From positions 1 to 64,000 of IMG/VR virus record IMGVR_UViG_3300032268_000293: 64,000 nucleotides of DNA; one strand, written 5' to 3'. This DNA is from a virus. Both the position numbers and the translations under genes were made by a program. The notes under the pieces were generated by a model that was given only the letters and a program-made list of their open reading frames with translations, was not told the DNA's origin and searched no databases. Each line of letters starts with the position of its first letter. Position 1 is the stretch's first letter. Shown piece by piece: positions 4,023-51,631 of the stretch.

Positions 4023-4268
4023 TTACTCCTCTAATGGAACTTCATCAAACTTTTTTTCCTGAATAGTTTTTTCTTTCCAAATCTTTCTAGGATTACCGCA
4101 CATTATACAGTGTGGCTGACCACAATCCATTGCGTGATGCTTAGCATATTTGTGTGGTTCTTTTACTTCGACACCATGCGCCTTCGCAATTTTAACTTGC
4201 CTTTTAACAGCAGTTTTTTTGCTATGAATACGCTTAGAATGTTGTTCTTTAGTTTGGGTATCACTCAT
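4023..4268 (-). CDS. Small basic Zn-knuckle protein
   Basis: 81 residues, strongly basic in the first half (HSKRIHSKKTAVKRQVKIAK). A putative zinc site lies in the centre, DCGQPHCIMCGNPRK, with three Cys and one or two His. Similar short proteins with CGxxxCxxCxNPRK occur in other aquatic T4-like phages as I recall, without known function. The ATG overlaps the stop of clpP, so the two are translationally coupled. Nucleic-acid binding is plausible but not shown. Confidence 0.7.
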   Translation of the reverse strand: MSDTQTKEQHSKRIHSKKTAVKRQVKIAKAHGVEVKEPHKYAKHHAMDCGQPHCIMCGNPRKIWKEKTIQEKKFDEVPLEE

Positions 4269-4825
4269 TAGTATAGATCCTTTACAATATCACAGAGTCC
4301 GAGTTTTTTTGCTTCTGCTGCAGCAAGCCAGACATCTTGTGGTGGTAGAAGTTTGTCTCTAATTGTTTCTTCGTCTAATCCTGTGCACTTCTTATAATGC
4401 GATATTAACCTTTTGGTCACTAAATCAAATTCTTTAACTTGCGCAAAGAGTTCATGTTCTTTACCAAAAGAACCCCATGAGTATTGATGCGAAAGGATAG
4501 AAGTGTTTGGCGTAAGAACACGTTGTCCTTTCTCTCCTGCAATGAACATGAGCAGACCAGCCGAAGCGATCTGCCCAAGTCCGATAGTTCTAACAGGAAT
4601 ATGGCTACCTTTAATTGTATCAATAACAGCAAACGCTGCATTTAAATCACCACCTGGAGAACAGATGATTAGATTTAAAACATCAAAATTTTCTTCAGAA
4701 AAATTACAATGAAATATCCACTCAACAACATTTTTACAAGAGGAAGTGGATACCTCATCCATAAACAAAAGGAAGTTTTGATTTGAATCACTAGAATCTA
4801 GTTTGATATTTAGTTTGTCTAGCAT
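4268..4825 (-). CDS. clpP: ClpP-family serine protease
   Basis: 185 residues from ATG at 4825, chosen because AGAGGA lies upstream; an upstream in-frame start at 4867 would lie deep in the SleB gene. The catalytic triad is visible: Ser88 in GQIASAG, His113 in LSHQYS, Asp164 in PPQDVW. The family glycine-rich strand CSPGGD is at 55-60. Length is that of a ClpP monomer, normally a 14-mer peptidase fed by ClpX/ClpA; no ATPase partner is seen in the window, so host ClpX would be needed. It starts 35 bp inside the hydrolase gene. A tmRNA gene lies about 0.9 kb upstream, and tagged proteins are classical ClpXP substrates. A head-maturation protease role is less likely because capsid genes are absent here. 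Confidence 0.88.
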   Translation of the reverse strand: MLDKLNIKLDSSDSNQNFLLFMDEVSTSSCKNVVEWIFHCNFSEENFDVLNLIICSPGGDLNAAFAVIDTIKGSHIPVRTIGLGQIASAGLLMFIAGEKGQRVLTPNTSILSHQYSWGSFGKEHELFAQVKEFDLVTKRLISHYKKCTGLDEETIRDKLLPPQDVWLAAAEAKKLGLCDIVKDLY

Positions 4826-5348
4826 AGGTATATTCCTCTTTTGGTTTATAAAATATATGACGACCAATTGTTGTGGTCTTGTCGAGTTTCCAACGAGGGT
4901 TTACATAATCTGCGTGATAATATAAAGCACCTTTAGATGGATCCTCAATCACTCCATGGTTAAAATAAACATAGAGTGCTAATTCTCTCGCCTCATTGTA
5001 TATAGCAGGGTTTGGTTTTCTCTGCACAGATCCATCACATAACCATGTAAATTGACATACACCTTGTGTCTTTTGAGTCACAACACCACAGATTGAGGAA
5101 TCAAACTTCTGTGATTTGACACGATTAATTGTAACAGCAGCAACTGCTATTCTTCCTTCTTTTGGTTCATATCCTGCTTCGTAATATATGTTATCAGCAA
5201 GACAATCAACTTCTTTTTTTTCTTTTGTGTTTAAAAACTCGTAAGGAACATTAACAATACTTGACGCTAACATTTTCCCATGAGCAGTAGTAAACAAGTA
5301 AGCAAAAATAACAACGATAATTAACAGAACAGTTGTTATAAACTTCAT
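4791..5348 (-). CDS. SleB-type cell wall hydrolase
   Basis: 185 residues. An N-terminal membrane/signal segment (about 4-20) is followed by a Hydrolase_2 (SleB/CwlJ) domain: NIYYEAGYEPKEG with the catalytic Glu57, VAAVTINRV, GVCQFTW, and near the end YHADYVNPRW. These enzymes cleave peptidoglycan as lytic transglycosylases or amidases. The signal or anchor implies export to the periplasm independent of a holin. Its 3' end overlaps the clpP start. With the GH19 enzyme and the spanins it gives this phage several envelope-attacking proteins. Confidence 0.85.
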   Translation of the reverse strand: MKFITTVLLIIVVIFAYLFTTAHGKMLASSIVNVPYEFLNTKEKKEVDCLADNIYYEAGYEPKEGRIAVAAVTINRVKSQKFDSSICGVVTQKTQGVCQFTWLCDGSVQRKPNPAIYNEARELALYVYFNHGVIEDPSKGALYYHADYVNPRWKLDKTTTIGRHIFYKPKEEYTYARQTKYQTRF

Positions 5349-5411: not shown

Positions 5412-5693
5412 TCAGGTGGACTTCTTGATAGTAGTCTTTTCTTGTGTAGTTTGGGGGATTTGACTTACGAATCCGTTTAATGCATTTGCTTTCGCAATGA
5501 TTTCAGATTCGTTTGGATATGACGGGAATCCTGGATGTTCAGGAATCATGCCACCATTGAGTTTAGCAACCTCGACTTTAGTTGACCAATCGTTGCTAAC
5601 CACTTCACGCTTACCATAATACTCTTCAGTAAGCATATCTTTCGCCATTTTTAAAAGTTCGAGGCGAATCTCGAACGGAGTCATATTTGACAT
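5412..5693 (-). CDS. Conserved T4-like phage protein of unknown function
   Basis: 93 residues, beginning MSNMTPFEIRLELLKMAKDML, a pattern I recall from hypothetical proteins of T4-like cyanophages (MTPFEIRL...). An amphipathic N-terminal helix is followed by a Pro/Asn-rich middle (GGMIPEHPGFPSYPNESEI) and a polar tail. A T4-late-type octamer stands 64 bp upstream, so late expression is likely. The 5349-5411 gap downstream holds a GC-rich inverted repeat (GCACAA/TTGTGC) that might be a weak terminator. Confidence 0.65.
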   Translation of the reverse strand: MSNMTPFEIRLELLKMAKDMLTEEYYGKREVVSNDWSTKVEVAKLNGGMIPEHPGFPSYPNESEIIAKANALNGFVSQIPQTTQEKTTIKKST

Positions 5694-5756
5694 AGTAATT
5701 ACCTTTCTGTGTTGTGTGTGAAAAATTCAAATTTGTGTGTTCATAATATATACACT

Positions 5757-5764
5757 TATTTATA
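5757..5764 (-). promoter_or_regulatory. T4-type late promoter octamer TATAAATA
   Basis: Exact match on the - strand to the T4 late consensus TATAAATA, placed so that transcription would start about 55 nt before the 5412-5693 gene. No -35 is needed when the phage-encoded late sigma factor and clamp (gp55/gp33/gp45) are used. It coincides with the 3' end of the tmRNA coding piece. Confidence 0.5.
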
Positions 5765-6047
5765 ATGGTTGGTTATTCTGTTACGAGGAAACCAACCGAA
5801 ACCCTAGTCAGCTATTAAGCTGCCAATGCGTAACTTTCGTCATTTGCATTTACTTTATTTGCTTGATTTACGGTCATCGCCTACCGTGTTGCCGTCTCTA
5901 CTATCTAGCCCTGTCGAAACCAATGCATCCCCATCAAAAACGCACTACAAGGTTGCCCATTATTAAGAGGGGTGTAGTGCCCTTTTGGTGGAGATGGGGA
6001 GAGTCGAACTCCCGTCCAGAACTCCTTCGCTTTGAAGGGATTACAAC
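5757..6047 (-). ncRNA. ssrA: Circularly permuted two-piece tmRNA
   Basis: In transcript order, the acceptor piece runs from about 6047 to the encoded CCA at 5988-5986. It carries a T arm (GGGAG, loop TTCGACT, CTCCC) and the acceptor strand CATCTCC (5996-5990). A 53-nt intervening segment is closed by a perfect 8-bp repeat (GCACTACA 5980-5973 with TGTAGTGC 5949-5942). The coding piece then starts with GGGGATG (5932-5926), which pairs with CATCTCC in all seven positions and includes the G3-U70 alanine signature. The conserved TTTCGAC follows. CAGGGCT (5913-5907) pairs with AGTTCTG (6023-6017) as helix P2. The tag reading frame at 5847-5815 encodes ANDESYALAA and is followed by TAA TAG. A GGTTGGTT/AACCAACC hairpin (5797-5767) ends the coding piece. 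The exact ends of both pieces are estimates. Confidence 0.92.
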
Positions 6048-6051
6048 AATT

Positions 6052-6168
6052 CTAAAAATCTGAATTCTTTTTATCTTCTTCGAAATTACTCCAGTCGTAT
6101 GTTACCAGCTTATACACCCAGTAAACATGTAGAACAATAATCAGCAGAAAAAGAATTAGATTAGACAT
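6052..6168 (-). CDS. 38-aa single-TM microprotein between ahpD and tmRNA
   Basis: ATG at 6168 follows directly on the TAA of ahpD (TAAATG) and the frame ends TAG at 6052. The sequence starts MSNLILFLLIIVLHVYWVY, a convincing membrane helix, followed by a short acidic/basic tail (NFEEDKKNSDF). No good ribosome site is visible, so coupling to ahpD is required. Its end lies just before the acceptor piece of the tmRNA. Function unknown; it could be a membrane micropeptide. Confidence 0.5.
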   Translation of the reverse strand: MSNLILFLLIIVLHVYWVYKLVTYDWSNFEEDKKNSDF

Positions 6169-6672
6169 TTAACTATTTAGCACTTTGGCGACGCTGTTCA
6201 TTACCGAAGCAATGCGTCCAATGTCACGAAGTTGTTCAACAGTATAACCTTCTTTCTTCAATGTTTCGTAGTGCGCTTTTACGCAAAAGTGACACTTGCC
6301 AACAATAGAAGCAGCAAGAGAATACGATTCGAATCTTGCTTTAGTTGTACCACCATGTGTAGTAATAGCATTCATACGAAGTTGAGCAGGCAATCCTTTT
6401 AGATTTGGATCATCAGCCATTTCAACATATGGATACCAAACATTATTTTGTGCCATAATACTCGCAGCACACATAGCAGCATTCGCTTCAGCTGGCGCAT
6501 CTGCCAGCAAAACAGAAAGAACTTTACCATTGCCAGTTGCCGCAAGAGCAGCAACTGCGCAACCATATGCCTCATCTGTTGGTAATGTGCTACGATTAAG
6601 GACTGCGTCAAGGTTTAGTTTCGTATCTTTCGCATACTCGGGAAGAGCTTCTTTAATCGCATCAATAAACAT
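6169..6672 (-). CDS. ahpD: AhpD-type alkylhydroperoxidase
   Basis: 167 residues, the usual AhpD length. The redox centre CHFC (C127, C130) and the proton-relay residues E115 and H134 match the E-x(11)-CxxC-xxx-H arrangement of mycobacterial AhpD, giving thiol-dependent peroxidase activity and serving as electron donor to AhpC. In bacteria it is itself reduced through lipoamide/lipoyl dehydrogenase, here presumably supplied by the host. Its ATG overlaps the ahpC stop, so the pair is an operon. Both genes look intact. Confidence 0.92.
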   Translation of the reverse strand: MFIDAIKEALPEYAKDTKLNLDAVLNRSTLPTDEAYGCAVAALAATGNGKVLSVLLADAPAEANAAMCAASIMAQNNVWYPYVEMADDPNLKGLPAQLRMNAITTHGGTTKARFESYSLAASIVGKCHFCVKAHYETLKKEGYTVEQLRDIGRIASVMNSVAKVLNS

Positions 6673-7217
6673 TATAGAGTCTCTCCACCAACTTGACGAT
6701 TACATGCGCACTTCTCACCAGTTTGAAGAGCATCAAGGATACGTAAAGTTTCCTCAGGTGAACGACCTACGTTTAGATTATTTACTGTGACATGCTGAAT
6801 CACATTATCTGGATCAACAATAAATGTAGCACGAAGTGCTGCACCTGCAGGTGCATAGAATACACCCAGTTGATCGATCAAAGAAACGTCATAATCGCGA
6901 GAAGTATCAGCAAACTGAATGTGCTTCAAATTTTTTAAATCATCATGAGAAGTTTGCCATGCTACTTTACAGAACTCGTTATCTGTAGAACCAGTCAAAA
7001 GAACTGCGTCACGATCTGCGAAATCTTGGAACAACTTATCATAAGCCACAATCTCAGTAGGACACACAAATGTAAAGTCCTTTGGATAATATACGATTAC
7101 TTTCCACTTTCCTGGAAACGATTCTTCCGTAATTGTAAAAAATTGTTCACCTTTACTGCTAATAGGATTGACACCTGTAATAGCAAATCCTTCTAATTTA
7201 TCGCCAACTGTTCTCAT
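6672..7217 (-). CDS. ahpC: AhpC peroxiredoxin
   Basis: 181 residues. The peroxidatic Cys52 is in the typical-2-Cys motif DFTFVCPTE, and C-terminal cysteines C170 and C172 lie in EKCACNRQVGGETL. This tail is typical of the AhpC group that works with AhpD rather than AhpF. It reduces hydrogen peroxide, organic peroxides and peroxynitrite. AGGAG lies well placed before the ATG. Expression should come from the sigma70-like promoter at 7271-7299 through a leader with a strong hairpin. A bacterial origin and capture as an auxiliary metabolic gene is inferred. Confidence 0.94.
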   Translation of the reverse strand: MRTVGDKLEGFAITGVNPISSKGEQFFTITEESFPGKWKVIVYYPKDFTFVCPTEIVAYDKLFQDFADRDAVLLTGSTDNEFCKVAWQTSHDDLKNLKHIQFADTSRDYDVSLIDQLGVFYAPAGAALRATFIVDPDNVIQHVTVNNLNVGRSPEETLRILDALQTGEKCACNRQVGGETL

Positions 7218-7328: not shown

Positions 7329-7979
7329 TCAATAACCTCTTTCAATAAAGAATTGATTACGTAGGTCAATAAAACTGTTGATCCATTGATTTCGTTTCTC
7401 GTGAAATATCAATGGTGGTTCGTTATCAACAGACATTAGAATAACAATATTCGGAATAGAAATACCTGTTCGTTCTTCGAATGCTACTGCATAAGCAGAG
7501 CATTGCATAAAATAGTTATGAATGTCATCGCGACGCTTAACTCTACTTGATGTTTTAAAATCTATGACAGCAAGTTTACCTTCGTACTCTGCGATGCAGT
7601 CAACTGTTCCTGCGACTTGTAGGTGGTCAGAATAGAGTGGAGTTTCAAGGCAGTGTATGTTGTTGACTTTTGTGAGGACTGGTTTGAATGAAGACCAAGT
7701 CTCTGCATCAAATATATCTGGCTCAACATGCTCATTATTAAGATAGGATTCGCAGAGTGAGTGGATTCTTGTTCCACGATTTGCTGCTCTGGTTGATATG
7801 CGGTTGGCTTCTGCTTCTCCGACTCGTTTTCTCCAAGCGATGATTGCTTCTTTGCCAAGCAATCCTGTGACGCTTGTAACGGAGGGATAGCGTTTACCCG
7901 AAGGTGTCTCGTAGAGTCTACCTTCGGGAGTCTCAACACGTTGTATTCGCTGTATATCATGATGTATATGTGTAAACAT
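7329..7979 (-). CDS. PD-(D/E)XK exonuclease (MGME1/RecB-like)
   Basis: 216 residues. The nuclease core reads AGTVDCIAEYEGKLAVIDFKTS with D127, D140 and K142 as metal-binding and catalytic residues; an upstream RGTRIHSLCE motif (about 69-77) is typical of Cas4/MGME1-like exonucleases. Such genes are common in aquatic T4-like phages and are thought to act in host DNA breakdown or recombination. It overlaps the glycosyltransferase stop (TAATG). Confidence 0.85.
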   Translation of the reverse strand: MFTHIHHDIQRIQRVETPEGRLYETPSGKRYPSVTSVTGLLGKEAIIAWRKRVGEAEANRISTRAANRGTRIHSLCESYLNNEHVEPDIFDAETWSSFKPVLTKVNNIHCLETPLYSDHLQVAGTVDCIAEYEGKLAVIDFKTSSRVKRRDDIHNYFMQCSAYAVAFEERTGISIPNIVILMSVDNEPPLIFHEKRNQWINSFIDLRNQFFIERGY

Positions 7980-50105: not shown

Positions 50106-50321
50106 TTACCTCTTTAAATTTATGTATTCTTTAAAATAATTATCAAATTTGTTAATTAAGCTCTCAATGTCACTGCTGTTTGTAAGATCCTCAACTATGC
50201 GCTTCTCATCCATATTAAACTGTTTCGCATATCTTCTTGCGATACTTAGAAGAGTCGCAACTCTCATGTTAGGACTCTTCAAATTTAATGAAAGTTTTTG
50301 TCTTTCTTCACGAAAACTCAT
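50106..50321 (-). CDS. Small basic helical protein
   Basis: 71 residues, basic: MSFREERQKLSLNLKS, then VATLLSIARRYAKQFNMD and a helical end. ATGA overlap with the oxygenase gene upstream. It could be a DNA-binding or assembly factor. Unknown. Confidence 0.5.
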   Translation of the reverse strand: MSFREERQKLSLNLKSPNMRVATLLSIARRYAKQFNMDEKRIVEDLTNSSDIESLINKFDNYFKEYINLKR

Positions 50322-51631
50322 ACAAAGAATTCATCAATATCAGCCTTTACCGCATTGGGATGATACTTCGCCAAATCTTCTTCACCAAGTTTGTTGCGAA
50401 GGTAATCATACCACTCTTGTTCTTCCCACATTCCTGGGGAAACACCATTCCATAGTTTTTTCCATAGAGGGTGTTCTTTGTTCAATCTACGAGACTCAAC
50501 ATATTCATATCTAGTATTTTCGTATTCGTACGATCCAAGTTCTAACATGTTTTCACGCAAATAAACAACAAGCGAAACACGCTCAGAACCTTCTTCGCAT
50601 ACGATTGGTGTGTTACCATGAATAACCTCATGATTGTTTACCAACAACAAATCTCCTGGACGAACATTTACGGCAATACGAATTTCAGGGAAAATCAAAT
50701 AACCACCTGTGTATCTACCATCATTAGAAAGTGTCAACAGATTTGAAAGACCATCAGAAAAGTCGCCAGCATCACGATGAGCAGCAGTTCTAAATGTTTT
50801 ATTTACTGTTACTGTAGTAAAAGGTGTCTCAGGAATAACAAATCTTGGATCAATTTTATCTGTTGCTACTTTCTGAGCGGAATATCTTGTTGGTAATAGT
50901 GTCTCAAAACCTCTAGCCAAATGCTGAAGGAAGGGATACGCCATCTTAAACTTCTCAAAATTATCACGAGTATATGTAGTCGCACGACCAAACGGAATAC
51001 GAGGATAACGATCGAACCAACCTGCGATACCAGAATCAACTGGATTACCATAGGATGTTTCACTAACCATCTTCATAGTTTCTTGTGTTGATTCTGCTCT
51101 CTGCGCAGGTGTCAACGGAATAATACTGTCAACCCACTCATCAAAATTAAATTTGTTGCGGAAACGTGAGATAACCCAAACATTATTCTTACCCGAACCC
51201 AATGCTTTCAAACGTGACTCTGGTGTTGGATAACGTGAACGAATTTCTTCAATAACATCCTCATCTCCGAGTTTGGCTTTTTCTGCGTTGAGTAAAGCAA
51301 GCATTAGTTCTTCCTGATAATTTGTTACCCACTCACGACCTTCGCCTGTTACCGATGTCCCTTCTTTGATACCAGAAGCAAGTCCACGATTTTCAGTACG
51401 AACAGCAGCCTCACGCAATCCAGCATATGCTGCGTCTTGTTCTTCCTTTGAGAAAAAGTTTTTTCTAAACTTAAAGGCAATATGCCTTTCGTCTGGATCA
51501 ACTCCATAACCAGATGGAAGATAACAATCCGTATCCTCTTCAATCAAAATATCATAATTGGACTCATCAACAAACATACCAAGTAAATGTTCGCAGTCAT
51601 GTTTTTGTTCTAGTTTAATTACACGTGTCAT
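50318..51631 (-). CDS. 2OG-Fe(II) oxygenase, JBP/TET-like
   Basis: 437 residues. The C-terminal catalytic domain has the iron ligands H285-x-D287 (AAHRDAGDF), H338 (HEVIHGNTPI) and the 2-oxoglutarate Arg R351 (ERVSLVVYLRE), with the intervening GGYLIFPEIRIAVNVRPGD, the sequence spacing seen in TET/JBP-type nucleic-acid oxygenases. Residues 1-220 form an extra domain (GVDPDERHIAFKFRKNFF). Oxidation of a methylated base (5mC or T) is the possible substrate use; other hydroxylase roles remain open. Confidence 0.8.
   Translation of the reverse strand: MTRVIKLEQKHDCEHLLGMFVDESNYDILIEEDTDCYLPSGYGVDPDERHIAFKFRKNFFSKEEQDAAYAGLREAAVRTENRGLASGIKEGTSVTGEGREWVTNYQEELMLALLNAEKAKLGDEDVIEEIRSRYPTPESRLKALGSGKNNVWVISRFRNKFNFDEWVDSIIPLTPAQRAESTQETMKMVSETSYGNPVDSGIAGWFDRYPRIPFGRATTYTRDNFEKFKMAYPFLQHLARGFETLLPTRYSAQKVATDKIDPRFVIPETPFTTVTVNKTFRTAAHRDAGDFSDGLSNLLTLSNDGRYTGGYLIFPEIRIAVNVRPGDLLLVNNHEVIHGNTPIVCEEGSERVSLVVYLRENMLELGSYEYENTRYEYVESRRLNKEHPLWKKLWNGVSPGMWEEQEWYDYLRNKLGEEDLAKYHPNAVKADIDEFFV

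Follow-up and report, generated by a model that had tools for sequence, protein, structure and literature searches.

A phage tmRNA gene and its neighbourhood

The window analysed here is a stretch of 64,000 nucleotides from a 79,831-base (79.8-kb) IMG/VR virus record, a contig that represents a fragment. The record belongs to a T4-like virus of bacteria and encodes a T4-type DNA polymerase, a UvsX-like recombinase, a DnaB-like helicase, ribonucleotide reductase, PhoH, and endolysins; the closest cultured homologues of the polymerase, at 57% identity, are found in cyanophages. A TET/JBP oxygenase domain protein (50318-51631, minus strand; PF12851, E 1.3e-22) is also encoded, which suggests modified bases in the phage DNA. 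The minus strand encodes, at approximately 6048-5767, a tmRNA of betaproteobacterial type in circularly permuted, two-piece form; tmRNA releases stuck ribosomes and labels incomplete proteins for breakdown. The gene is borne by the phage: phage genes flank it on both sides, and the same gene block occurs in many viral contigs.

The genes around the tmRNA are read in the same direction as the RNA. Upstream are an exonuclease (7329..7979; phrog_298), which in relatives is usually close upstream of the tmRNA, an AhpC-like peroxiredoxin (6672..7217; PF00578), which heads a probable co-transcript, an AhpD-like protein of the carboxymuconolactone decarboxylase family (6169..6672; PF02627), and a 38-aa open reading frame with a hydrophobic stretch (6052..6168; sub-threshold match to PF19868) that ends just before the tmRNA. 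The AhpC-like and AhpD-like genes form a peroxide-defence pair (6169-7217) adjoining the tmRNA. Co-transcription of the tmRNA with this pair is likely because the RNA begins a few nucleotides after the 38-aa frame and no standout promoter lies between them. A promoter-like site near the AhpC gene (7299-7271) matches at 11 of 12 positions, the number of such sites being not above chance. Downstream are a conserved 93-aa protein with no assigned function (5412..5693), a cell wall hydrolase (4791..5348; PF07486), and a ClpP-family serine protease (4268..4867; PF00574, E 3.7e-29; likely start at ATG 4825). A candidate T4-type late promoter, TATAAATA, directly 3' of the RNA (5764-5757) was rejected, since the window has two such sites where chance predicts 4.6. 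The window contains no riboswitch match in Rfam, and no tRNA gene was found in the record, including the remaining 16 kb beyond the window.

The RNA consists of an acceptor piece, a linker, and a coding piece, in that order on the minus strand. The acceptor piece (piece 1, 5986..6048), delimited by sequence, ARAGORN, and Rfam, contains the 5' strand of P2 (AGTTCTG, 6017..6023), a T arm (5997..6013; stem GGGAG/CTCCC, loop TTCGACT), and the 3' strand of the acceptor stem (CATCTCC, 5990..5996), and it ends with an encoded CCA (5988-5986). The linker (5933..5985) carries an 8-bp inverted repeat (GCACTACA/TGTAGTGC) and, according to the folding prediction, forms a hairpin that stacks on the acceptor stem; it would be cut out of the mature RNA. 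The coding piece (piece 2, 5767..5932, the 3' end being approximate) begins with GGGG at 5932 and includes the acceptor 5' strand (GGGGATG, 5932-5926), which pairs with CATCTCC at seven of seven positions with a G3-U70 pair, and the P2 3' strand (CAGGGCT, 5907..5913), which pairs with AGTTCTG at seven of seven positions, two of them G-U. The tag frame (5815..5847) starts at the resume codon GCA (5847), reads ANDESYALAA through the codons GCA AAT GAC GAA AGT TAC GCA TTG GCA GCT (5847-5818), and closes with the stop codon TAA (5817-5815) followed by TAG. A 3' hairpin, GGTTGGT...ACCAACC (5767..5797), was recognized by Rfam and by folding, and its stem is kept with altered letters in relatives; a strong terminator hairpin, in contrast to beta_tmRNA (RF01850), is absent 3' of the coding piece.

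Model searches agree with this layout. ARAGORN calls a permuted tmRNA at c(5724-6078) with the tag ANDESYALAA. The beta_tmRNA model RF01850 matches over its full length (model 1-331) with 175.3 bits (GA 84, E 1.3e-54), far ahead of the alpha, cyanobacterial, and one-piece models: the next best clade model is the alpha model RF01849 (62.5 bits, GA 50), while the cyanobacterial RF01851 (48.3 bits, GA 70) and the one-piece RF00023 (33.8 bits, GA 47) do not reach their cut-offs. The tmRNA_permuted model RF04321 is matched whole, from 6048, with 153.8 bits (GA 47), although as a general model for all permuted tmRNAs it is silent on viral origin. A preliminary description, made from the sequence, had reported all diagnostic parts of a tmRNA in permuted order on the minus strand, a 53-nt linker closed by an 8-bp repeat, 7-bp acceptor (with G3-U70) and P2 helices between the pieces, and the tag ANDESYALAA; each element was confirmed at its position, the linker is exactly 53 nt, and the covariance-model search that the description had proposed as a check gave scores above the cut-off for both the beta and the permuted model.

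The window RNA shares with beta_tmRNA RF01850, seen here in Alcaligenaceae, the gene order, the tRNA-like domain, a P2 helix between the pieces, the 3' hairpin, and TAAATGC at the start of the tag frame; it differs in being located in a phage and in having A-U as acceptor pair 5-68 (GGGGATG/CATCTCC). Compared with the tmRNA of Advenella (L138), the tag is identical and the tag codons are nearly so.

Pairing between the two pieces

Unconstrained co-folding of the two pieces yields both the acceptor helix and the 7-bp P2 helix between them. Co-folding energy was discarded as a test of this pairing: the gain of -13.6 kcal/mol is matched by 54 of 300 shuffles, and because it does not go beyond shuffled sequences, the proof of pairing lies in the covariance-model score and in covariation.

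Covariation was followed in 135 viral loci and in 100 unique viral sequences; the sequences are related to each other, so that the counts are not independent. In the search patterns for these loci, either side of acceptor pair 5-68 could vary and the other six acceptor pairs were fixed; all seven pairs are kept in 100 of 100 unique sequences, and only pair 5-68 is informative because the six constant pairs are set by the pattern. At this pair, A-U occurs 74 times, G-C 35, C-G 20, and G-U 6, with no mismatch in the 135 loci. P2 is paired in 92-100% of the unique sequences at each position, and six of its seven positions show several pair types; the five pairs of the T stem are intact in all 100, three of the five varying through paired changes, and a stem of the coding piece covaries as well. 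Several of the outer P2 pairs (GUUGU/GCAAC) are not retained in roughly half of the relatives.

The window itself contains a compensatory change. Its P2 helix reads AGTTCTG/CAGGGCT against ACTTCTG/CAGGGGT in 12 of 15 listed relatives, the other three having further matched variants; the second P2 pair has thus gone from C-G to G-C through matching changes in the two pieces, across the permutation point. This swap is missing in the window's 90% identical relative. The preliminary description had argued that helices able to form only between the pieces point to a working two-piece RNA, and the covariation across the pieces supports this reading. Selection clearly maintains this tmRNA.

Relatives, host, and origin

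The preliminary description regarded a phage copy as unusual, a view that does not stand: a phage two-piece tmRNA was published in 2022 for the OM43 phage Melnitz (Buchholz et al., 2022; PMC9004378), the narrow patterns used here find a permuted tmRNA in 135 viral contigs, and many more occur at the same gene position. In this phage group a two-piece tmRNA is common. The 2022 survey counted 402 tmRNA-bearing phage genomes with 133 unique tmRNAs, of which 53 are two-piece and 50 of these aquatic (PMC9004378), and a tmRNA database holds 79 bacteriophage sequences (PMC11915505). The window copy is phage-borne and permuted like those of Melnitz and the other two-piece set, which are mostly from marine and other aquatic phages (PMC9004378); the Melnitz RNA clusters with those of alphaproteobacteria and SAR11 phages and is associated with a glutamine riboswitch, whereas the window copy is of the beta type. 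The window tmRNA therefore adds a beta-type case to the phage two-piece tmRNAs already known. Mycobacteriophages, among them Bxz1 and Wildcat, and Bacillus phage G have tmRNAs that are not known to be permuted. These one-piece RNAs (PMC4131195) are likewise phage-encoded but belong to phages with other hosts.

The nearest relatives of the window RNA are viral. An identical copy is present in a second contig (L002), and a 146.6-kb contig (L055) has a copy that is 81% identical, with the same tag and the AhpC-like and AhpD-like genes upstream at 92% identity. A 146.6-kb relative with the same tag (L258, 14323-15917) also encodes 11 tRNAs on the downstream side of the tmRNA block, where the window record has none, and another relative (L114) has an array of 21 tRNAs. 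A further copy (L112) is 90% identical and has the tag ANDSVYALAA. Its linker is the same as the 53-nt linker of the window despite the different coding pieces and tags, while the linkers of other relatives are unrelated, which suggests that recombination may have taken place inside the tmRNA gene. Closely related phage tmRNAs carry the tags ANDSVYALAA, ANDNVFALAA, and ANESSFLMAA; tags thus change within the phage lineage. Among 213 viral tags that start with AN, 187 end in LAA, so that the ClpX-type end is kept, and the middle varies widely. The viral tags (L002-L136 and L258-L415) include forms of 13-14 aa, such as ANDAFYGEDRLAA, and nearly always end in L, I, M, or V followed by AA.

Permuted tmRNA also occurs in a cultured phage. 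Pseudomonas phage SM1 (KU245542.1; L229:3007-3306), which infects P. aeruginosa, has an unannotated permuted tmRNA beside a tRNA-Arg gene, with the tag ANDTSFDVRLAA and scores of 118.6 bits for RF04321 and 111.2 bits for RF01850. The phages PaMx31, FBPa45, PA_L9, and UF_RH6 match at the stretch of the SM1 tmRNA. The host of SM1 is known to use a one-piece tmRNA; SM1, with its permuted tmRNA, offers a laboratory system.

Cellular genomes bear on the host. The tag ANDESYALAA, or a variant at its fifth residue, follows TAAATGC in 42 cellular genomes, all of them Burkholderiales or labelled as betaproteobacteria or Proteobacteria; its carriers have one-piece tmRNA in Oxalobacteraceae (e.g., Herbaspirillum) and permuted tmRNA in Alcaligenaceae (e.g., Advenella, Oligella, and Pelistega). 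The permuted cut-off was passed by 17 of 300 sampled Burkholderiales, 14 of them strongly. The earlier proposal that the tag reveals the host group therefore holds in so far as cellular genomes with this tag are Burkholderiales, but phage relatives carry other tags, which makes the tag a weak pointer. Assignment of the host from the closest cellular tmRNA was abandoned: among 399 sampled Burkholderiales the best match to the window RNA reaches 73-83% over part of the RNA, below the phage relatives at 80-90%. A pattern scan of the cellular genome collection, with a linker of 26-56 and CAGGG, gave no case of the acceptor helix GGGGATG/CATCTCC. Taken from these sequence comparisons, the host is plausibly a betaproteobacterium.

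A tree of both pieces, built with the linker removed, places the window in a clade of 32 rows made up of viruses only (SH-aLRT 98 in the second run). Neither the grouping of all viruses as one clade (p-AU 0.38) nor that of all cells as one clade (p-AU 0.54) was rejected, and rooting with a one-piece tmRNA outgroup, tried as a guide to the direction of transfer, produced long branches and no rejection either way.

Proposed function in infected cells

The probability that the locus encodes a complete two-piece tmRNA, a long-standing gene in a group of T4-like phages, is put at roughly 0.9; its function is what we infer. The biochemical steps of processing, charging, tagging, and ribosome rescue considered here are drawn from established tmRNA biology. 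The RNA would be transcribed as one precursor, probably together with the upstream AhpC/AhpD genes; host RNase P would cut at 5932 and 3' processing enzymes at the CCA, excising the 53-nt linker, and the acceptor and P2 helices would hold the two pieces together. Host alanyl-tRNA synthetase would charge the RNA by way of G3-U70, and during infection host SmpB and EF-Tu would deliver it to ribosomes stuck on broken mRNA. On these, translation would move to the tag frame and end there, freeing the ribosome, and the product tagged with ANDESYALAA would be degraded by host ClpXP or ClpAP. SmpB (PF01668) was not found in the 79.8-kb record, so the tmRNA must use host SmpB; it is likewise absent from 26 of 26 related records, and all of these records may be incomplete. 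The activity of the tmRNA depends on host SmpB fitting the phage RNA.

The less expected part of the locus is the presence, next to a phage tmRNA, of a gene for a protease of the kind that degrades tagged proteins. The ClpP gene lies about 0.9 kb downstream of the tmRNA in the same direction; its protein matches solved ClpP chains in the PDB (best E about 1e-16), and its triad of S102, H127, and D178 (numbered in the listed frame, by alignment) is intact and is invariant in seven phage homologues. No literature link between a phage tmRNA and a phage ClpP was found in the library searched. One extension of the rescue model, rather than its opposite, would have the phage tmRNA tag truncated or host proteins and the phage ClpP, with host ClpX or ClpA, degrade them, for the recycling of amino acids or the removal of host proteins. 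The arrangement of the two genes and the intact triad argue for such a unit, as do the LAA ends kept in the tags, the presence of a Clp-family protease in 15 of 26 related records, and the position of a permuted tmRNA 1.05-3.95 kb upstream of ClpP in 30 of 33 viral loci found with ClpP as bait (counting loci that extend 4.5 kb or more upstream). With the exonuclease as bait, however, a permuted tmRNA is present in 29 of the 46 loci that extend 4.5 kb or more downstream, and ClpP is missing nearby in 20 of these 29; the cultured phage BUCT-ZZ01 has a related ClpP and no tmRNA near that gene, ClpP-like proteins also act as phage prohead proteases, and the neighbourhood may merely reflect shared descent of the gene block. 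A statistical link between the two genes in the exonuclease loci was set aside, as the tmRNA is present in 9 of 11 loci with ClpP and 20 of 35 without it, a difference that is not convincing and that shared descent would explain. Joint tagging and degradation by the phage is accordingly an attractive but tentative reading.

Other purposes of the phage copy have to be set beside this one. Infection may leave the host tmRNA cut or inhibited, tmRNA-cutting toxins being one conceivable cause, and the phage RNA may take its place in the way that phage tRNAs replace cut ones; the covarying helices, altered letters, and varying tags would preserve function yet change the sites of attack, and the tRNA arrays of relatives such as L114 and L258 fit this idea, but the window record is without any tRNA gene, and replacement is possible though doubtful. 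It is highly improbable that the RNA is a decoy that shuts down trans-translation in the host by sequestering its SmpB or its ribosomes, a model put forward for the tmRNA-like RNA of mycobacteriophage DS6A, which has no tag: an RNA with only the tRNA-like domain can inhibit tmRNA (PMC4131195; PMC11915505), but the 213 viral tags keep a resume codon, a tag reading frame, and an LAA end, none of which a decoy would need. Since ssrA genes are common integration sites of islands and prophages (PMC9004378), imprecise prophage excision could in principle leave a functionless copy or fragment of the host gene in a phage; the gene is complete, however, and carries compensatory changes, many T4-like viral contigs keep it at a single place in their gene order, and the closest sequences are other phages rather than cells, so that there is hardly any chance that the window copy is such a passenger. 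A complete phage tmRNA that acts in ribosome rescue is the reading retained here.

A wider proposal is that widespread T4-like environmental phages possess a two-piece tmRNA and ClpP as a tag-and-degrade unit working with host SmpB and a host Clp unfoldase, and that the phage pool is possibly older and more diverse than the cellular tmRNAs of betaproteobacteria, with cells possibly the recipients. We consider this proposal, taken as a whole, rather unlikely; if it is true, cells could owe the two-piece form of tmRNA to phages. The phage tmRNA offers a clear test of whether phages control protein turnover and the fate of stalled ribosomes in the cells they infect, and the ClpP gene beside it suggests that the two steps, tagging and degradation, may be dealt with jointly.
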